Source: Streptosporangiales bacterium (GTDB lineage Bacteria; Actinomycetota; Actinomycetes; Streptosporangiales; WHST01). From it: DNA of 62,356 nt. The notes under the pieces are model-generated. The model saw only the letters and a list, made by a program, of their open reading frames with translations. It did no database searches and was not told the origin of the DNA. Position numbers and translations under genes: made by a program. The stretch spans positions 1-62,356 of the forward strand of contig WHST01000024.1 of NCBI GenBank assembly GCA_009379955.1, written 5' to 3'. Each line of letters starts with the position of its first letter. Within the stretch, counting starts at the first letter, position 1. Positions 4,791 through 58,086 of this stretch are shown here, piece by piece.

Positions 4791-4826
4791 CGCTGCGAGG
4801 GTCGTCGGCGGAGCTTCACCTCACCG

Positions 4827-4868
4827 ACGTGGACTTCACCTCGTCCCGGCACGAGGTGAAGTCCACGT
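4827..4868. terminator. Second strong hairpin in the 4682-5108 gap
   Basis: The arms at 4827-4844 and 4851-4868 pair perfectly over 18 bp around loop CCCGGC. It could be a second transcription terminator protecting tmm from upstream read-through. Its right arm shares three bases with the next palindrome (4866-4891), so the two structures cannot form fully at the same time. Confidence 0.6.
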
Positions 4869-4891
4869 TGATCACGTCAACGTGATCAACG
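4866..4891. repeat. 26-bp palindrome, operator or third hairpin
   Basis: CGTTGATCACGT (4866-4877) is followed by CA and then its exact reverse complement at 4880-4891. A two-base centre is poor for an RNA hairpin loop but suits a dimeric DNA-binding protein, so this may be an operator about 220 bp upstream of tmm. The rest of the gap up to 5108 holds the tmm leader. Confidence 0.5.
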
Positions 4892-46650: not shown

Positions 46651-47193
46651 TCAGGCCAGCGTTTCGTCCCTCGCCCGCGTGTAGCGGTAGAAGGCCTCGG
46701 CGGACTTGCGCACGTGGCTACGACACTCGTTCTCCGCGCGTACCGGGTCGCCCGCCGCGATCGCGTCGATGATGTCGGCGTGCTCGTGCAATGCGGTGGT
46801 CAACCGGCCGGGCACGCCACCAGATCGCCGGCGGTCGCGACGGCCTCATGCTCGGCGAGCAGGTCGCGTAGCCGTGCCGCGAACTCGTGCTCTTGCTGTC
46901 CGGCGGCGCTACGACCGGCGATCCCGTCGATGACCTCCCGCAGCTCGTAGATCTCCCGCATGTCCCGCGCGGTCACCTCGGACACGAAGTACCCGCGGTG
47001 CGGAACGGCGGTCAGGAACCCCTCCTGCTCGAGCACGGCGAGCGCTGCCTTCAACGGAGTGGCGGACAGCCCGAGGCGCTCGCTCAGTGGCTGCGTCGCC
47101 ACCTTGGCACCCGGCCGCAAGTCGGCCGTTGAGGATCTCTTCCCTGATGGCCGCGTACGCGCTCTTCACGTGGGTCTGTCGTAGAATTGTCAT
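46651..47193 (-). pseudogene. GntR/FCD-family regulator broken by two frameshifts
   Basis: The N-terminus MTILRQTHVKSAYAAIREEI is followed in another frame by PGAKVATQPLSERLGLSATP (winged helix) and the FCD start YELREVIDGIAGRSAAG. After a second shift near 46805 comes LTTALHEHADIIDAIAAGDP and RSHVRKSAEAFYRYTRARDE, stop at 46651. Frame changes lie near 47115 (GCGGCCGGG) and near 46805. The complete gene would be about 180-220 aa. It probably once controlled the convergent deacetylase operon. Either real decay or base-calling errors could explain it. Confidence 0.8.
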
Positions 47194-47213: not shown

Positions 47214-47360
47214 TGTGCACCGCCGAGTGGCTCGGGTCAGCTCGGCCACACCGCGGACCGGAGGCGCGCCCCACCACTACCGCCGAGAGCGTGTGGTCCG
47301 CCGGCGGTTCGGGTAGGTGATCAGAACGCCAACAGGTCGGAACGGAAGGGGTTACCCACC

Positions 47361-47804
47361 ATGCCGACAGTTGAGGAGTCTATCGACGTCGAGGTCCCGG
47401 TCGGTGCGGCCTACGATCGGTGGACCCAGTTCGAGTCGTTCCCTCGGTTCATGGTCGGCGTCGACTCGATCGTGCGGACCGACGACACGCATCTGCACTG
47501 GGTGATCACGCTCGCGGGTGTGACCCGCGAGTTCAATGCGGAGATCACCGAGCAGCGCCCGGACGAGCGGATCGCCTGGATGTCCCGCGGTGGCACCAGC
47601 AGCCACGCCGGCGTGGTCACGTTTCACAGGCTCGGCGAGGGCTCGTCCCGGGTTACGGTCGAGCTGAGTTGGTCGCCGGAGGATCTCGTGGAGCATGCCG
47701 GCTCGGTCGTCGGCGCCGACGACCTGCTGGTCAGAGTCGATCTCAACCGGTTCAAGTCACTGGTCGAGGACGAGCATGGTGCGCACGGCCGACGTCAGGT
47801 TTAG
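47361..47804 (+). CDS. SRPBCC-family (polyketide cyclase/dehydrase-like) protein, copy 1
   Basis: This 147-aa protein starts MPTVEESIDVEVPVGAAYDR, with the START-like fold hallmarks RWTQFESFPRFM, TDDTHLHWVITLAG, EITEQRPDERIAW and RVTVELSWSPE. The family binds hydrophobic ligands; the role of this branch is unknown, and it is often stress-related. A close paralogue is encoded at 54304-54756 on the other strand. GGAAGGGG lies upstream of ATG 47361. Confidence 0.85.
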   Translation: MPTVEESIDVEVPVGAAYDRWTQFESFPRFMVGVDSIVRTDDTHLHWVITLAGVTREFNAEITEQRPDERIAWMSRGGTSSHAGVVTFHRLGEGSSRVTVELSWSPEDLVEHAGSVVGADDLLVRVDLNRFKSLVEDEHGAHGRRQV

Positions 47805-47852
47805 GCCGTACACCTGTGGGGAGAACGTCCTCATCGGCTCGTGCGGAGTGCC

Positions 47853-48206
47853 ATGGACACGCGGATCAGCCTGGACGTGGACGGGGAGCGGCACAAGCTC
47901 GCAGTCGACGTCCGCGCGACGCTGATCGACACGCTGCGCGAACGGCTCGGCGTGACGTCGCCGAAGAAGCGTTGCGACCACGGCCAGTGCGGCAGCTGCA
48001 CAGTGTTGGTGGATTCCGGCCAGATCTGCTCCACCGTCGGCATGCTCGACAAGGTCACCGCCGGATGGCCGAGTCACGCGACGAGAGACCTCGCGGCCAC
48101 CGCCGCGCTTGACGACGACGAGATCAGGGAGCGGATGAGCGGCAACCTGTGCCGCTGCGGTGCGTACGTCACCATCGTGGCGACGATCAGGGAGGTTGCC
48201 CGATGA
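47853..48206 (+). pseudogene. Xanthine-dehydrogenase-type [2Fe-2S] subunit with internal deletion
   Basis: The N-terminal plant-ferredoxin-type cluster motif is present (RCDHGQCGSCTVLVDSG), and the end has QICSTVGMLDKVTAGWPSHA and GNLCRCGAY. The segment normally linking them, including the first cysteine pair of the second cluster (CGxC) and about 50 residues, is missing with the frame kept. With the second cluster lacking two ligands the product cannot be a normal electron-transfer subunit. Its stop overlaps the next fragment start (ATGA), as in intact XDH operons. Confidence 0.75.
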
Positions 48207-48328: not shown

Positions 48329-48385
48329 TCGGTGGCAGCGCGGCCGTCGAGGTGTAAACCGGTGCAGCGTGGGAACGCAGTAGTC

Positions 48386-49909
48386 ATGGACGTTCATCGG
48401 ACCGGCGAGTCGTACTGGGTCGAGACGACGGAGGCCACGGCCTACCCTCCGCTCGACGGCCACCTGAGCGTCGACGTGGCGATGATCGGTGGCGGAGTGG
48501 CCGGGTTGTGCACCGCCTGGGAGCTGGTCTCGGCCGGCCGCTCGGTCGCCGTGCTCGAGGCCGACCGCATCGCGTCGGGGGTCACCGGCCACACCACGGC
48601 GAAGTTGTCGGCGCTGCAGACGTTCACGTACGACCGACTGCGCAGGTCTGCGGGTGCGGACACAGCACGCTGGTACGCGCGCACCCAGCAGGACGCGATC
48701 GACCGCGTCGAGCTGACGGCAGAATCCCTCGGCGTCGACTGCGACTTCGAGCGCGCCGCCGCGTACACCTACGTGGAGTCGCCGGACGGCGTCGACCAAG
48801 CGCGCGCCGAGGCCGACGCGGCACGCGACGCTGGCCTCTCCGCGTCACTCGTCACCGACACTCCGTTGCCGTACGACGTGGCCGGAGCGGTCAAGGTCGA
48901 GAACCAGGCGCAGTTCCATCCGAGGCGGTACCTGCTCGCGGTAGCCGAGGGGATCGTGGAGCGTCGTGGAGTGATCCATGAACGCACCCGTGTCGTCGAC
49001 CTCGACGAGGGTGAACCCTGCGAGCTCACCACCGATACCGGCGCCACCGTCACCGCGCGCGACGTCGTCGTCGCCACGCACTACCCGATCTTCGATCGCG
49101 CGCTGCTCTTCGCTCGGCTCGTACCGCACCGCGAGGTCGTGGTCGCCGGCCCGCTTCCGGAGGACCGGGCACCGGACGGCATGTACATCACGCCTGAGCA
49201 CGGCAAGCGGTCGGTACGCACCGCGCCGTATCGACCAGGACAGCGACTGCTCATCGTCACCGGCGAGTCGTTCACTCCGGGCGAGGCCGACGTGACCGAG
49301 AGGTACGAGCGACTAGAGTCGTGGACCAGGGAACGGTTCGCGCTGAAGGAGATCACGCACCGCTGGGCCGCACAGGACAATCAGCCGACCGACGGCCTGC
49401 CGTACATCGGCCTGCTCCACGCCGCCGCGAAGCATGCCTACGTCGCCACCGGCTTCGGCGGCTGGGGCCTCACCAACGGGGTGGTGAGCGGCCTGCTGCT
49501 CGCGGCTCTGATCACCGACCAGGTGGCGCAGCCGCCGTGGGCGGACATCTACGATCCGCGCCGGCTTCATCCGCTGCGAGAGGCGGGCGCCGCGGTGACG
49601 GCCCAGGCCAAGGTGGCCAGGCACCTCGTCGGGGACAGGCTGCGACCGACGCATGTGGACTCCGTCGAGGACGTCGACCCGGGATCCGGCGCGATCGTGC
49701 GCCTGCGGGGAGAACGCTGCGCGGTCTACCGCGACGGCGCCGGCGCCGCACACGCGGTGTCCGCGACATGCACGCACCTCGGCTGCGTCGTCGCGTTCAA
49801 CGACGCCGAGACGTCGTGGGACTGCCCATGCCACGGGTCACGGTTCGGTGTGGACGGCGCCGTGCTGAACGGCCCGGCCACCCGGCCGCTGGAAGGACGC
49901 GACACGTGA
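48386..49909 (+). CDS. FAD-dependent oxidoreductase with C-terminal Rieske domain
   Basis: This 507-aa protein has a DAO-type FAD fold (VAMIGGGVAGLCTAWELVSAGR near residue 33, and GHTTAKLSALQ) ending near residue 400, followed by a Rieske [2Fe-2S] domain with CTHLGC and CPCHGSRF supplying the two Cys-x-His pairs. Such fusions are found in bacteria and presumably pass electrons from a substrate amine or thiol through the Rieske cluster. The substrate is unknown. GTG of the next gene overlaps its stop. Confidence 0.87.
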   Translation: MDVHRTGESYWVETTEATAYPPLDGHLSVDVAMIGGGVAGLCTAWELVSAGRSVAVLEADRIASGVTGHTTAKLSALQTFTYDRLRRSAGADTARWYARTQQDAIDRVELTAESLGVDCDFERAAAYTYVESPDGVDQARAEADAARDAGLSASLVTDTPLPYDVAGAVKVENQAQFHPRRYLLAVAEGIVERRGVIHERTRVVDLDEGEPCELTTDTGATVTARDVVVATHYPIFDRALLFARLVPHREVVVAGPLPEDRAPDGMYITPEHGKRSVRTAPYRPGQRLLIVTGESFTPGEADVTERYERLESWTRERFALKEITHRWAAQDNQPTDGLPYIGLLHAAAKHAYVATGFGGWGLTNGVVSGLLLAALITDQVAQPPWADIYDPRRLHPLREAGAAVTAQAKVARHLVGDRLRPTHVDSVEDVDPGSGAIVRLRGERCAVYRDGAGAAHAVSATCTHLGCVVAFNDAETSWDCPCHGSRFGVDGAVLNGPATRPLEGRDT

Positions 49910-50901
49910 GCCGGGAAGGCGGGCCGCTCCCCCGGGCGCGCGGCCCGCTGTCCGGGGCCGTGCTCGACGCGTTGCGCGGCGTCCCAGGTCACACCTCGTT
50001 CGCCGACATTCCCGTTCCCACGGATGCGTACGGCGACGACGTCCAACTGACCCTCTACCTCAGCTACGAGCTGAGCTACCGCGGCTTCGACGATGTCGAC
50101 CCCGAGTGGGAGTGGGACGCGGGCCTACTCGGCCTGCGCGGCGCGCTCGAACGACGCTTCCTGCGTGCCCTGCGCGAGGACGCCCCCCGCCACGACGACG
50201 TCGCCTCTGCCCTCGACGAACTGCTCGTCGAGCCGATCGACGCGGCCGGTGTCTCGCACTTCCTGCGCGACGACGGCGAGTGGTGGCACATGCGCGAGTA
50301 CGCCGCGCACCGGTCGATCTACCACCTGAAGGAGGCCGACCCGTACGCCTGGGTAATCCCGCGTATCGACGGGCAGGCCAAAGCGGCCCTCGTCGCCGTC
50401 GAGTACGACGAGTTCGGCGGCGGACGCGGCGAACGCGTCCACTCGCGGCTCTTTGCGGACCTGATGGACGGCATGGGCCTCGACCACACCTACGGCGGCT
50501 ACCTCGACACGGCACCCGCCCAGATGCTCGCGATCGTGAACGTCATCTCGCTGTTCGGACTCCACCGGTCGCTGCGCGGTGCCCTCGTCGGCCACTTCGC
50601 GACGGTCGAGATCACCTCAGGACCGGCCGCCCGCCGCCTGGTGCAGGCACTCGAACGACTCGCCGCCCACCCCGCGTGCCTCCACTACTACACCGAGCAC
50701 ATCGAGGCCGATGCCGTCCACGAGCAGGTGCTGCGTCACGACGTCATCGCCGACCTGGTCCGGCACGAACCGCACCTCGCGTCCGACGTCGTCTTCGGCA
50801 TCGGCGCCGCCACCCTCACCGAGGACCGCTTCGCCGACTACACGCTGACTGCATGGCGGGCCGGGCGCACCTCGATGCGCGAGACGCTACCCGCGCCCTA
50901 A
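49906..50901 (+). CDS. Iron-containing redox enzyme family protein (heme-oxygenase-like fold)
   Basis: This 331-aa, mostly helical protein has HMREYAAHRSIYHLKEADPY, VEYDEFGGGRGERVHSRLFA, YYTEHIEADAVHEQVL and ADLVRHEPHLASDVVFG. The spaced Glu and His residues are those of heme-oxygenase-like diiron oxidases/oxygenases. GTG 49906 overlaps the FAD-Rieske stop, and the CDGSH gene overlaps the 3' end from the other strand by 4 bp. It may form an oxidative system with the FAD-Rieske protein. Confidence 0.8.
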   Translation: MSREGGPLPRARGPLSGAVLDALRGVPGHTSFADIPVPTDAYGDDVQLTLYLSYELSYRGFDDVDPEWEWDAGLLGLRGALERRFLRALREDAPRHDDVASALDELLVEPIDAAGVSHFLRDDGEWWHMREYAAHRSIYHLKEADPYAWVIPRIDGQAKAALVAVEYDEFGGGRGERVHSRLFADLMDGMGLDHTYGGYLDTAPAQMLAIVNVISLFGLHRSLRGALVGHFATVEITSGPAARRLVQALERLAAHPACLHYYTEHIEADAVHEQVLRHDVIADLVRHEPHLASDVVFGIGAATLTEDRFADYTLTAWRAGRTSMRETLPAP

Positions 50902-51209: not shown

Positions 51210-51934
51210 TCAGCGCTCCTGGGTCCGGTCGCTCGGTAGTTGGTGGACCGACTCGACGATATGCGCAGCGATCTGCCGTACCTTCACGTTGTTGTTCTGT
51301 GAGGTGGTGGACAGAAACGCGAACGCTGCCTCGGGCGAGCACCGGTTCTGCGCCATGACGATCCCGATCGCATGATCGATCGTGGCTCGGCTCGTCAGTG
51401 CCTGATTGAGCTGACCGATCAGCTCGTCCTGGCCGGCGAAACGCGTGGCAGCAGTGACCATCACTGCGACCTCGTTCGCGAACACCCTGGTGGCCAGGAG
51501 TTCGCCGTCGGTATATCGGCGGGCCGGCGAGCGGTACATATTCAACACACCGGAGGTATGCGCTTCGTGCTGAAGAGGCAGGAACAGCATCGCGTGGACG
51601 TCGAACCGGTCGAGCGCCTGCTTGCCGAACCGCGGCCACCGCCGCTCACCGGCCAGGTCGGGCAACCGCACCACGACACCGTCTCGCAGGCAGGTCAACG
51701 ATGGGCCCTCGTCGAGATCGTACTGGAGCTGATCGATCTCGAAGGCCAACTGACCGCTACCGGCGATCGTCTTCGCCCGGCAGGTTCGTCGCTTGCAGCG
51801 ATCGTCACACTGCACGCCGTCGCCTCCGGCAGCGCGTCGGCAGCGAGCATCGCCACCCGCTCCAGCAACCGGTTCACGTCCATGGGCTGCTCGGTGAGCA
51901 GCAGTTCGGCCACCTTGGGCACCGCGGCCAGCAC
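51210..51934 (-). pseudogene. GAF-ANTAR regulator interrupted by a frameshift
   Basis: The N-terminal part (MLAAVPKVAELLLTEQPMDV, then ERVAMLAADALPEATACSVT) is in one frame. From about 51770 the continuation (TIAGSGQLAFEIDQLQYDLD, then MLFLPLQHEAHTSGVLNMY) is in another. The C-terminal ANTAR RNA-binding domain (LTSRATIDHAIGIVMAQNRC to FLSTTSQNNNVKVRQIAAHI) is intact. One base change at CCGGGCGAAG restores the frame. If the frameshift is real, a shorter product from an internal start could still carry most of the GAF and all of the ANTAR domain. Confidence 0.78.
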
Positions 51935-52039
51935 GTCAATGCGTCGTCACCGGTCCGCTCCGCGCCCATGGCACCGCCCACGTCTTCCACCAGGCCGGCG
52001 ACAAGGGCCGGATCACCCGTGCGGGACAGTACCAGCGGT

Positions 52040-52145
52040 CGACCGGGTCCGGCCGCTGGTCGCCGACGGAGGACGCCAGCATCGCCTCCTCGAGCTCCGG
52101 TGGTCGCGGCAGGCTGCCGGTATGGGTGGTGCGAACGCGATCGAC
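52040..52145 (-). pseudogene. Fragment of a MetE-like/UROD-fold protein, N-terminus
   Basis: RTTHTGSLPRPPELEEAMLA on the minus strand is the conserved opening of cobalamin-independent methionine-synthase-like (UROD/MetE) proteins, whose barrel starts with this metal/substrate loop. It decays after about 35 residues into unrelated sequence, and its upstream end runs into an opposite-strand fragment. Confidence 0.55.
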
Positions 52146-52259
52146 ACTTCGCTGCTCTTCCTCGACTTCAGCCGGAACCACAGCAGACGCTGGTGCAGCA
52201 TGAACGGCTGCGGGGCACGCGCCAAGATGCGCCGCTACCGCGCCGGGCGTTCGCGCTGA
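52138..52259 (+). pseudogene. Fragment of a CGNR zinc-finger (ABATE) regulator, C-terminus
   Basis: LLFLDFSRNHSRRWCSMNGC followed by GARAKMRRYRAGRSR and a stop at 52257-52259 is the CGNR zinc-finger end of actinobacterial stress regulators, with CGNR changed to CGAR. The N-terminal stress-binding domain is missing. It abuts the MetE-like fragment on the opposite strand, marking a rearrangement point near 52140. Confidence 0.65.
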
Positions 52260-52398
52260 TCGAGGTACCCGGTCTGCGCGACGGTGTGCCACCCGATGCC
52301 TGCGTCTGCGATTCGCTGCGGGCGGCATGGGGCGGCAGCCACGACCGTGTCATCGGCCGCTGCGAGCGTTTGATCGCGCGCGAGTGGGGAACGAGACA

Positions 52399-52944
52399 AG
52401 CATGGCGGATGCGACCGCGTACGTGTCGGCCGAGGCGTCGCTGACGGAGCTTGCGGGGGGGCGGCGCAACTGTGCCGCGGCCGCGAGCCGTATGAGAACG
52501 CCACGCAGGCGGTCCTCGGCGAGGGGGCGAGCGACACCGCCATTCTCCTGCTCGGTGAGCAGCCGGGCGACCGGGAGGATGAGCAGGGCAAGCCGTTCGT
52601 GGGGCCGGCGGGTGGGTTGCTGGAGAAGGCGCTCGGCGAGGCGGGCATCGAGCCGGCGCGGACGTACCGCACCAACGTCGTCAAGCATTTCAAGTACGGC
52701 GAGGTCCGCGGCAAGCGGCGGATCCACGAGACGCCGAACCGCACCGAGATCCGGGAGTGCCGTCCATGGCTGCTGGCCGAGATGGCGCTCCTGCGTCCCA
52801 CGGTGCTGGTGTGTCTCGGCGCGACCGCGGCGAAGGCGATCTTCGGTCCGTCGTTCCGCGTCACCAAGGACGTGGCATCCCGCTGGACTGCCCGGAACTG
52901 GCGCACGACGACGACCGGGCCGAGCGCGGGGTGGCGACGCCTGA
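52399..52944 (+). pseudogene. UdgX-type uracil-DNA glycosylase, frameshifted and truncated
   Basis: MADATAYVSAEASLTELAGG in one frame continues, after a run of seven G (52454-52461 region), as CRGREPYENATQAVLGEG, LLLGEQPGDREDEQGKPFVG and the UdgX hallmark KRRIHETPNRTEIRECRPWL in another. One extra G would restore the frame. The C-terminus after CLGATAAKAIFGPSFRVTK lacks the conserved HPS motif and runs into Ku sequence, so the gene is truncated as well as shifted. UdgX normally removes uracil and can cross-link to DNA. Confidence 0.75.
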
Positions 52945-53236
52945 CGTCGTCGTCAGGTCGATGACCACGGCATGGAAGCCGGAGCAATACGCCGACACCT
53001 ACCGCGAGAAGGTCGACAAGCTGATCAGGGCGAAGCGCAGGGGTAGGGAGGTCATCGAGGAGAACGAGCCGCCGGAGTCGACCAATGTCGTGAACCTCAT
53101 TGGACGCGCTGCAGGAGAGCGTCGCGCAGGCGAGGAAGACCAAGGACGGCAAGTCCTCCGGCTCCTCGACGTCGACGGGTCCGGGAAGGCCGCCAAGAAG
53201 GGCACCTCGCGCAAGCAACGGAAGAAGGCTTCGTGA
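52945..53236 (+). pseudogene. C-terminal fragment of a bacterial Ku protein, frameshifted
   Basis: SMTTAWKPEQYADTYREKVD, then KLIRAKRRGREVI matches the bacterial Ku C-terminal core. After a shift near 53098, MDALQESVAQARKTKDGKSS continues it. A second shift returns to a Lys-rich tail (GKAAKKGTSRKQRKKAS) with the stop at 53234-53236. The DNA-encircling N-terminal two-thirds are absent. It is joined directly to the UdgX remnant, so a deletion between the two genes is likely. Confidence 0.72.
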
Positions 53237-53418
53237 CGCCCGCGCTCTCCCCGACATGCTCCTGGTGCGTGCGGGGCTGGGACCACTGCCACGGCCCGCT
53301 CATCCGCCACGACGACGGCGAGCTCGAGTGCATGGTCGACGTCCGTTGCGCCCGCACCGAGGACGCACACGACATCGTCGTCTCCTGCACCGTCGTCGCC
53401 GGCTGCGGATGTGCCTAG
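53233..53418 (+). CDS. Small cysteine-rich protein (61 aa)
   Basis: The protein begins MTPALSPTCSWCVRGWDHCH and has seven cysteines, including CSWC and a C-terminal CGCA, suggesting a small metal-binding fold. Short proteins with this Trp-Cys pattern occur in actinobacteria without assigned function. GTG 53233 overlaps the end of the Ku remnant by 4 bp. It ends 4 bp before the Fpg start. Unlike its neighbours it shows no frameshift. Confidence 0.5.
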   Translation: MTPALSPTCSWCVRGWDHCHGPLIRHDDGELECMVDVRCARTEDAHDIVVSCTVVAGCGCA

Positions 53419-53422
53419 GCCG

Positions 53423-54208
53423 ATGCCGGAGCTCCCCGACGTCGAGGGCTTCCGCCGCGTCGCGGCACGGGCCGCGGGACGACGTTGTCGTGGTGACGGA
53501 CATCGGCGTGCTCCGAGACACGACGGGCGCCCGCCTGCGCCGAGCCCTGCCGGGGGGCGGTGCTCGGCACCCCGCAACGGCACGGCAAGTGGCTCGGCGT
53601 CCCGCTGCGCGACGCCGGCAGGCGCCACCGCAAGGACCAACCCACGGTCGCCTACCACTTCGGCATGACCGGCTCCCTCGCCTGGTGCACCGCCGACGAG
53701 GATCGTCACCGCCACGACCGCGTCATCCTGGTGACGGACAGGGGAGAGCTGCGCTACCGCGACATGCGCAAGCTGACCGGTATCAGGCTGCTCGCCGACG
53801 ACACCGCATGGGCCGACCTGGTGGAAGGCCTCGGTCCCGACGCCGCCGGAATGTCCCGCCGCGACCTCGCCGACCTGCTCTCCGGCCGTCGCGGCCGCAT
53901 CAAGTCCGCACTGATGGACCAGACGGTGGTCACCGGCCTGGGCAACCTCACGGTCGACGAGATCCACTGGCGCGCGTGCATCGACCCGCGGGCGCCGGTC
54001 GGCGAGCTCAGTGAGCACGCTGTGGCGCGGATCCACCGCCGGACGGGCGAGGTGCTCCACTCCGCCTCCAGGGTCGGCCACGTCTCCGGCCACCGCTCCT
54101 GGCTCACCGGCCGCCGCGACGACCCCGACGGCGGTCGCTGCCCGCGTTGCGGCACGCCACTGCAGCGCGGGCAGGTCGGTGGGCGTACCACCCTGCCAGT
54201 CCGTCTAG
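53423..54208 (+). pseudogene. Formamidopyrimidine-DNA glycosylase (Fpg/Nei) gene with about three frameshifts
   Basis: The start MPELPDVEGFRRVAARAAG has the catalytic Pro/Glu. Reading shifts to DVVVVTDIGVLRDTTGARL near 53478, then to VLGTPQRHGKWLGVPLRDAG near 53557 (in a run of six G). The remainder is colinear: KSALMDQTVVTGLGNLTVDE (helix-two-turn-helix) and zinc finger CPRCGTPLQRGQVGGRTT. A last shift near 54192 leads to CQSV and a stop at 54206-54208. The gene order and length are otherwise normal. Either recent inactivation or read errors are possible. Confidence 0.78.
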
Positions 54209-54224
54209 ACGGTGGTCGTCGGAT

Positions 54225-54276
54225 GTGTGAAGGGCACCGTCACCACACCATGACGTGGTGACGGTGCCCTTCACAC
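54225..54276. terminator. Long hairpin between convergent Fpg and SRPBCC genes
   Basis: The arms at 54225-54246 and 54255-54276 pair perfectly over 22 bp around an 8-base loop. It lies between convergent genes, as expected for a bidirectional terminator. The arm core GTGAAGGGCACCGTCACC (54227-54244) differs at two positions from that of the hairpin at 4733-4790. Confidence 0.75.
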
Positions 54277-54303
54277 CGTGCGCGTTGCCGGCCGCTGCCC
54301 GCG

Positions 54304-54756
54304 TCAGTCGCGGGGGACCTCGCCGCGCCAGCCGCCGGCGCCGCCCTTGTCCTCGACCAGGCTCTTGAAGCGCTTGAGGTCGGCCTTGACCTGCAGGTCG
54401 TCGGCCTTGACCGCCGCGCCGGCCTTCTCCACAAGGCCCTCGGGAGACCAGCTCATCTGGACCATGACCCGCGACGAGCTGTCGCTCAGCCTGTGGAACG
54501 TGACGACTCCCGCGTGGCCGGCGCCCTCGGTGGACGTCCAGGCGATCCGCTCGTCCGGGTGCTGCTCGGTGATCTCCGCGTCGAACTCGCGCGTCCGGCC
54601 CGCGACCGAGATCACCCAGTGCAGGTGCGTGTCGTCGGTCTGGGTGATCGAGTCGACGCCCTCCATGAACTCGGGGAAGGACTCGAACTGGGTCCACTGG
54701 TTGTACGCGGCGCTCACCGGTACGTCGACCTCGATTGACTCCTCGACTGTTGGCAT
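54304..54756 (-). CDS. SRPBCC-family protein, copy 2
   Basis: This 150-aa paralogue of the 47361-47804 protein starts MPTVEESIEVDVPVSAAYNQ and keeps WTQFESFPEFMEGVDSI, DDTHLHWVISVAGRTREF and EITEQHPDERIAW. Identity to copy 1 looks well above half. ATG 54756 is the conserved start; an in-frame ATG 36 bp earlier has no support from copy 1. The two copies lie in opposite orientation about 6.5 kb apart, flanking most of the decayed genes. Confidence 0.85.
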   Translation of the reverse strand: MPTVEESIEVDVPVSAAYNQWTQFESFPEFMEGVDSITQTDDTHLHWVISVAGRTREFDAEITEQHPDERIAWTSTEGAGHAGVVTFHRLSDSSSRVMVQMSWSPEGLVEKAGAAVKADDLQVKADLKRFKSLVEDKGGAGGWRGEVPRD

Positions 54757-54913
54757 CGTCGACAGCTCCTTCCGTCTCGGTGTGTGGTTCACCGCCTACC
54801 CGCTCGTGCCGGAACGACACCAACTCCGGGTACGCCATCTCCTCACCGCCGGCGGATCGGCTGATCTGTCGGTCGGTGGTTACCCGACCCTCCGCACGGG
54901 TAGGCGCCCTGCC

Positions 54914-55192
54914 ATGAATGCACTCACGAGACTCCGTCGACGCGTGGCCGAACTGTTCGAAGGGAAGGCGGCGGCGCGTCGCGGCACGGAGGCCGATGTG
55001 GAGCACGACGACCACCAGGCGCTGCGTCGCCGGACCGGCGGTGTGAGCGGCACGGCCGACGAGTCGACGACGGGGACCGGGAAGAACGAGACCTTCGTCG
55101 GGCGCGTCGCGGGCGAGGATCCCGCTGACCAGGAGACCGGCGCCGAACGCCGCGCACGGCTCCGCGACCACACGAAGGACGAGGACAGGTAG
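54914..55192 (+). CDS. Hydrophilic hypothetical protein (92 aa)
   Basis: MNALTRLRRRVAELFEGKAA is followed by a highly charged tail rich in Asp, Glu, Arg, Gly and Thr, probably disordered. No family is recognised. It lies divergent from the SRPBCC gene across 157 bp and 12 bp upstream of the Vms1/baeRF-like gene. It could be a small DNA- or membrane-surface-associated protein. Confidence 0.55.
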   Translation: MNALTRLRRRVAELFEGKAAARRGTEADVEHDDHQALRRRTGGVSGTADESTTGTGKNETFVGRVAGEDPADQETGAERRARLRDHTKDEDR

Positions 55193-55204
55193 GCGTGAAC
55201 GACG

Positions 55205-56295
55205 GTGGACCTGACTTTCCTCCAACCCGTGTACGCGGACGGCGGGCCGTATGCGAGCGTCGTCCTCGAGACCGGCCGCGGGGCCCAGGACGCCGGCCAC
55301 GCGATCGCATTTGCGCTGGCGAGGACTGCGGGACGAGCTCGTCGCGGAAGGCGCGGACCAGGCCACTCTCGCCGCACTGGACGACGTCGTCGGCGCCCGT
55401 CCGGCATCGGTGGTGAGCAGGGCCAGGTCGTCGTCGCCAACTCGCGACGCGTCCTGCTGGCCGAGCGCCTCGTCACGCATCGCGGACAGGGCGCCAGCTG
55501 GGGATGGCTGCCCGACGTGATACCTCTGCTGCGCGGCATGGCGCCCCGGGTTCCGCACCTCGTGATTCGTATGGACAGGGCAGGCGCCGACATCGATGTA
55601 CACGGTCCTACCGACGACACGGTGGTCCAGGTCGACGGCGACGAGCACCCGCTCCACAAGACGCGCGGAGGCGGTCTCGCGCACCGCAGGATCCACCAGC
55701 GCGTGGACGACACCGCCCAGCACAACGCGAAGGTGGTGGCCGAGCGCGTCGACGCACTCGCCAGGCGCAGCCACACGCGGCTGATCGTCGTCACCGGTGG
55801 ACCGCAGGCCGTGTCGAGCCTGCGCGACGAGCTGCCGAAGGCCAGCACCGAGCTCGCGGTGGAGCTGGAGTCCGGCGGCCGCCACGGCAATGGCGGCGAG
55901 ACCGACCGGCAGGTGACCGACGTGCTCGAGGCGCACGTCCGCGAGTCCGAGGCGGAGCTCCTCGAATCGTTCCGTGCGGAGCTCGGCCGGCACAGCAACG
56001 CGGTCGCCGGCCTCGACGCCACAGTCGACCGGTTGCGGCAGGCGCGCGTCGACACGGTCCTCGTCGAGGACCCCGCAACGGAGACGCCACTGTGTGGACA
56101 GGACCTGACCCGTTGACACTGGGACGCGACAACGCCGACCTCGACACCGTCGACCAGGCCGACCGGCGCGAGGCCCCGGCCCTGTCGGCCGTCGTCCGCG
56201 CGGCCACCGCGACGGACGCGAACCTCGTCCTGACCGAACCGGGTGCCACCGGCCACCGCGACGGCATCGGCGCGCTTCTCCGATACTCCTACTGA
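55205..56295 (+). pseudogene. Vms1/baeRF-type (eRF1-like, Rv2629-related) gene with frameshifts
   Basis: LTFLQPVYADGGPYASVVLE starts the fold. Between about 55310 and 55405 the true frame reads WRGLRDELVAEGADQATLAA before switching back to VVVANSRRVLLAERL. The middle part (LPDVIPLLRGMAPRVPHLVI, HNAKVVAERVDALARRSHTR) is intact, and a third shift near 56104 leads to LGRDNADLDTVDQADRREAP and the stop at 56293-56295. Proteins of this group resemble peptidyl-tRNA hydrolases/release factors and ribosome-associated stress factors. Full length would be about 360 aa. Confidence 0.72.
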
Positions 56296-57577: not shown

Positions 57578-57999
57578 TCAACCAGAGGGCGGGATGTTCC
57601 AGGCGTCGATCACCGGCCGGTCGTGCTCGGCGCCGAGGAACGACATCGTGCCGGTGCCGAGACGGAAGAATCGGCCGGCGTCCGGTGGCAGGCCGAGCCA
57701 GCACGCGGTGAGCACCCGCAGCACGTGACCGTGCGCGACGATCGCCACGTCCTCCTCGTTCAGAAAGGGACGTACTCGTTCCAGCACGGCGTCGACCCGA
57801 GCACCGACCTGCTCGACGGACTCGCCCGGGTGGTCGTCGTCGCCCGGCGGTACGCCGTCGCGCCACAGGTACCAGTCGGGAGAGTCCACTGTGGCTCGTC
57901 GCCGAAGACGAACCGGCTCAGCAGCAGACGGTCGTCGCGGATGACGACGGCGTACGCGGCGACGCGGGTCCTGCGCGTCTCCTCGGACCTGATGCTCAT
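57578..57999 (-). pseudogene. Chimeric remnant: NUDIX N-terminus joined to histidine-phosphatase C-terminus
   Basis: From ATG 57999 the frame reads a NUDIX start (SIRSEETRRTRVAAYAVVIR, FGDEPQWTLPTG) but loses the GX5EX7REUXEE box. At about 57880-57890 a different frame takes over with the second half of a phosphoglycerate-mutase-like phosphatase (DWYLWRDGVPPGDDDHPGES, VAIVAHGHVLRVLTACWLGL), ending at 57578. CTCCCGACTGG is read as TLPTG in one frame and SPDW in the other, so a deletion at short homology is the likely origin. Neither enzyme can be complete. Confidence 0.75.
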
Positions 58000-58086
58000 G
58001 TCCGTCCATTTTGCCGCACCCGTCGCGGCGCGGACGAATCCACCCGCCGGTGGCATACGCGACGGGCAGGGTGAAGACTCTGTGTC

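Follow-up and report, generated by a model that had tools for sequence, protein, structure and literature searches.

In Streptomyces, the genes for non-homologous end joining (NHEJ) can be divided into a nearly ubiquitous core, in which a Ku gene lies beside a polymerase gene, and a variable part, in which extra Ku, ligase and polymerase genes differ by species (Hoff et al. 2016, PMC5124664, available portion). A search of that paper for the term "pseudogene" gave 0 matches. Bacterial NHEJ genes have been lost repeatedly, and this pattern is itself known (PMC7719229, available portion). A narrow literature search found no paper joining UdgX, LigD and NHEJ.

A locus that can be compared with these systems is found in a Streptosporangiales bacterium. 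The window, meaning the whole stretch of DNA analyzed, is 62,356 nucleotides long and makes up an entire contig (C24) of a draft genome of 6.61 Mb in 225 contigs, with 97.4% completeness and an estimated contamination of 3.8%. Between positions 51210 and 56295 it contains what we read, with a probability of about 0.8, as an accessory set of stress-response and DNA-repair genes that is undergoing real decay. The genes in and around this interval are as follows.

46669-47181, minus strand: remnant of a GntR-family regulator in three frames, with about 34 residues missing inside; matches GntR (PF00392) and only 1-46/125 of FCD
47342-47804, plus strand: SRPBCC gene, copy 1, open (PF03364, 8e-15)
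47841-48206, plus strand: CoxS-like [2Fe-2S] protein with an internal deletion, running from Fer2 (2-54/77) straight into Fer2_2 (22-74/75)
48332-49909, plus strand: FAD-dependent oxidoreductase with a Rieske-like C-terminus (named by eye), ORF intact
49904-50901, plus strand: iron-containing redox enzyme (Haem_oxygenas_2), intact (PF14518, 2.1e-55)
51210-51937, minus strand: GAF-ANTAR regulator (ANTAR 2-54/54, GAF_2 35-134/136)
52149-52244, plus strand: CGNR zinc finger of an ABATE/CGNR-type regulator (PF11706, 2.3e-13), the remainder of the gene unrecognizable
52402-52930, plus strand: UdgX remnant (TIGR03914, 51-190/231)
52949-53235, plus strand: remnant of an accessory second Ku (Ku2), C-terminal part only, spread over more than one frame (TIGR02772, 199-252/259)
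53233-53418, plus strand: small cysteine-rich ORF of 61 aa, open, between Ku2 and Fpg
53423-54200, plus strand: Fpg/Nei-family glycosylase in three frames, with the last part of the zinc finger missing
54304-54792, minus strand: SRPBCC gene, copy 2, intact (PF03364, 5.9e-19)
54914-55192, plus strand: small ORF of 92 aa, open; an ORF of this kind also precedes the hibernation-factor gene in the congeners G001 and G002
55205-56295, plus strand: Rv2629-family ribosome hibernation factor (baeRF family 2), its frame switching at three points (PF18844, 2.4e-38)
57578-58040, minus strand: Nudix-like start (named by eye) joined to the C-terminal half of a histidine phosphatase (PF00300, 96-193/194 only)

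The first-pass annotation held that the genes on both sides of the interval are intact. This is wrong for the GntR regulator, the CoxS-like gene and the Nudix/phosphatase gene, all of which are broken. The pieces of the GntR remnant are 52% and 50% identical to an intact gene in G001 (L074). Intact genes, among them a DUF6766 gene, lie between and beside the broken ones. Inside the interval, the second SRPBCC gene and the two small ORFs are open; these three genes are too short to exclude error. A family search with the 61-aa ORF gave no match.

The two SRPBCC genes lie in opposite orientation, separated by about 6.5 kb, and constitute an inverted repeat whose arms are 82% identical over 259 bases and 76% over 193 bases. 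The segment between them could be invertible by recombination. In a plasmid search, SRPBCC matches were seen among the best 10 of 220 records. Elsewhere in the window, a stretch of 69 bases (4813-4881) is 96% identical to positions 139-207 of L032, a locus on the contig with the intact Ku.

Reading frames were tracked on both strands by a codon-usage model that has seven states and was trained on the window, and a single filter was used for all sequences. The control consisted of 20 other stretches of the same genome, 391,148 bases in total. Within its 5,086 bases, the interval contains 10 frame switches supported by codon usage. Over the control there are 44, which corresponds to a mean of 0.57 per 5,086 bases, with a maximum of 3 in any span of that length. 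The description of the GAF-ANTAR, UdgX, Ku, Fpg and baeRF-type genes as frameshifted is thus confirmed. The remainder of the window has 10 switches, several of them among the broken genes at 47.1-48.3 and 57.9 kb. A stricter filter leaves 5 candidates in the window, 4 of which fall between 51785 and 57877, and 10 in the 391 kb of control. The original filter gives 7 switches in 100 kb of G060, 4 in 100 kb of G049, 2 in 60 kb of G054 and 23 in 140 kb of G001, a comparison in which a model trained on the window may favor the window. One stretch of the window's own genome (L091, contig C50, 1-20000) is 32% non-coding by the frame model, the mean over the 20 stretches being 11%. The switches, and the two G runs that coincide with switches, are located as follows.

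51785: frame switch in the GAF-ANTAR gene
52032: frame switch upstream of UdgX
52455-52461, plus strand: G7 run at the first UdgX frame switch, the only run of at least seven in the window
52871: frame switch between UdgX and Ku
53098 and 53150: frame switches in Ku
53215: counted switch that completes the filter's ten, probably an ordinary gene overlap
53476 and 53557: frame switches in Fpg
53552-53557, plus strand: G6 run at the second Fpg frame switch
55321 and 55397: frame switches in the baeRF gene
56113: frame switch in the baeRF gene, seen by the model and left out by the count filter

In the GAF-ANTAR gene, the ANTAR domain and most of the GAF domain share one frame, and the N-terminal part lies in another.

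Such a cluster might also arise if the contig were simply bad between 51 and 56 kb and the genes were intact in the organism. The genome is a draft, the codon-supported frames contain no in-frame stop, and residue conservation in Fpg and baeRF is normal. Some of the frameshifts had been placed in runs of six or seven G, and both runs do exist, with a switch at each. These two, at the start of UdgX and at the second Fpg switch, are the only switches at runs of six or more, so homopolymer read error was rejected as a general cause. Most switches lie away from long runs, and switches are few in the rest of the genome. Moreover, whole parts of the Ku, UdgX, CGNR, GntR and phosphatase genes are absent, and base-level errors do not yield losses of this kind. 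In G002, the corresponding Ku2 and Fpg genes are open despite a coverage of 1.4 in the contig header. We therefore regard local assembly or read error as an improbable account of the interval as a whole. The first-pass annotation had offered a locally poor assembly as its second option; this fails for the core of UdgX and Ku and is possible for Fpg and baeRF, where the indels are small.

Real decay is supported for UdgX and Ku2. The UdgX remnant scores 191.1 bits, above the TIGR03914 cut-off of 189.95, on a partial profile. Motif A (GEQPG, in the frame match at 52554) and the R-loop (KRRIH, at 52713) are still encoded. Motif B, HPS(S/A)(L/V)(L/V)R, does not occur in any of the six reading frames of 52300-53450, and an Arg stands where at least 90% of 17 relatives have a Cys; that Cys would be an iron-sulphur ligand. 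Because motif B is missing and this near-invariant Cys is lost, the window copy, judged by its sequence, should not function as UdgX. It departs from its relatives at 6 of 61 conserved columns, where the relatives' median is about 3% and 2 of the 17 are as high or higher. For these counts, rows were dropped if they had less than 80% query coverage (70% for Ku2) or at least 98% identity, or were duplicates.

The Ku remnant starts about where UdgX ends and is directly joined to it. Since its match to TIGR02772 covers only the positions listed above and begins at this junction, most of the gene must be gone. It scores 34.6 bits against a cut-off of 150, PF02735 gives no match in it, and the beta-barrel core of Ku was not found. 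Its closest relative is Ku2 of G002, at 41% over a gapped stretch; housekeeping Ku proteins are more distant, at 31-33%. The leave-one-out conservation test for Ku2 carries little weight, as just 4 relatives entered it. No further piece of Ku was found in the genome besides the intact Ku gene and this remnant. The exact 32-base junction pattern was found in none of the viral contigs.

Fpg and the hibernation factor are damaged in a different manner, with lesions that are nearly all small indels, for which local assembly error is a possible alternative. Fpg is spread over three frames: one holds the first 20 or so residues (91% identity to G002), a second the stretch that follows and a third all the rest (61%). 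The N-terminal domain, H2TH and the zinc finger do not occur together in one frame. The zf-FPG match extends over 3-20/30 in the window (E 0.065), against 4-30/30 in G002.

The gene that had been named "Vms1/baeRF" does belong to baeRF family 2 by PF18844, and its best match, NF052289, makes Rv2629-family ribosome hibernation factor the better name. The main readable stretch matches 96-301/357 of this model in one frame (3.8e-47, 161.2 bits), below the 320-bit cut-off; the G002 copy is also below it, with 256.5 bits over 5-357. When the hibernation-factor piece was searched against the genome, the window copy was the sole match, and a scan of genome contigs with the baeRF piece gave no matches.

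These two genes raise the possibility of a mixed origin, in which the pseudogenes UdgX and Ku2 are real and older, and the indels in Fpg, in the hibernation factor or in both are assembly errors in working genes. Sequence and conserved residues are missing from UdgX, whereas Fpg (departures at 2/62 conserved columns) and baeRF (0/17) look conserved, and all codon-supported pieces keep a strong codon signal. On the other hand, the end of the Fpg zinc finger is also missing, and a total of five switches over two genes and 2.9 kb is exceptional for this genome. We consider a mixed origin conceivable but unlikely. Since the pieces are well conserved and have no in-frame stop, assembly error and very recent inactivation cannot be told apart for Fpg and baeRF.

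Although one UdgX, one Ku and one Fpg are broken together, decay of the set need not mean that base excision and end joining are no longer available to the strain. On another contig (C192), Ku, an ATP-dependent ligase and LigD-Pol lie together and are intact. Searches of the same genome found LigD-Pol four times, so three further times besides C192, and LigD_N once, together with three other genes of the UDG superfamily and three other H2TH (Fpg/Nei) genes. No stops were reported in the other Ku, ligase, LigD-Pol, LigD_N, UDG-superfamily or H2TH genes. With these intact genes elsewhere, a loss of end joining and base excision is not supported, and we hold it to be highly improbable. Intact paralogues, proposed in the first-pass annotation as a check, were thus found for Ku, the UDG superfamily and Fpg/Nei; no intact copy of UdgX or of the Rv2629-family hibernation factor was found in the genome. 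Its picture of a DNA-repair graveyard survives for the core of UdgX and Ku, with their large missing parts, the lost residue and a broken UdgX in G001, and fails where it extends to loss of function.

UdgX is present in 15 of 61 genomes. The congener G001 has a broken copy with lesions of its own, which differ from those of the window species: it is read in two frames, the stretch with motif A is missing and KRRIH is altered. This copy adjoins an intact LigD-Pol gene. In G002 (77% complete), UdgX gave no match; this genome has two intact Ku genes and an open copy of the window-type Fpg. Both congeners have an open hibernation-factor gene. The gene order UdgX-Ku-Fpg is not conserved around Fpg in 83 loci (80 plus L033-L035).

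Several other features were seen in G001. On its contig C16 (L073, 4.5-9.6 kb), gas-vesicle genes lie directly beside the LigD-Pol gene and the broken UdgX, with a luciferase-like remnant adjoining. The switches at 4.5-6.4 kb of this locus were considered as decay and rejected, as the family matches are to a gas-vesicle operon; they are probably gene overlaps. Two further LigD-Pol genes, at C4:17796-25119 (L245) and C5:805-8635 (L244), are each interrupted by some 6.5-7 kb of inserted DNA. In C4 the inserted DNA opens with a serine recombinase (PF07508, PF00239), so LigD-Pol genes may be used as integration sites.

Real decay is the best reading of the window because parts are missing, a conserved residue is lost, lesions lie away from homopolymers, neighboring genes are broken and a second species has a broken UdgX. 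The following course of events would fit. The island carried UdgX, Ku2, an extra Fpg/Nei, a ribosome hibernation factor and several regulators. With the housekeeping need covered by core copies, these genes would have escaped selection. UdgX would then have lost its end, and Ku2 most of its length, to a deletion, and small indels would have built up, some of them by slippage in G runs. Such an island would be a dispensable, lineage-variable extra, whose loss should leave end joining and base excision in the strain.

The breakdown of what look like spare copies while the main repair genes remain intact is fairly ordinary gene loss. A more speculative and rather doubtful suggestion is that accessory UdgX/Ku2 modules have been lost repeatedly within one actinobacterial genus, with the core Ku-ligase-LigD-Pol set kept, as if accessory uracil and break repair were actively disfavored. 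The apparent loss of DNA repair in the window is a loss of extras, and the lineage should not be annotated as deficient in either end joining or base excision. With different UdgX lesions in two congeners and an intact Ku2 and Fpg in one, the group offers a small testable case of accessory repair gene turnover with the core kept.

The individual genes can be compared with described families. The window copy of UdgX has GEQPG and KRRIH, as in the uracil-DNA binding proteins of the UdgX family (TIGR03914; PMC10359453, available portion), and differs from them in lacking motif B and the near-invariant Cys. The hibernation factor resembles the Rv2629 family (NF052289; PMC10901736, available portion) in its main readable stretch, but is split by three frame switches.

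At the level of the whole system, the genome resembles the core and variable NHEJ sets of Streptomyces, as far as the available portion of PMC5124664 describes them. The intact Ku-ligase-LigD-Pol set is accompanied by a second Ku, whose G002 copy is intact and whose window copy is a remnant. Unlike in the Streptomyces sets, the variable Ku of the window is a remnant fused to a broken UdgX. Compared with the repeated loss of NHEJ genes, as given in the available portion of PMC7719229, the difference is that here the core set stays and only the accessory Ku is lost.
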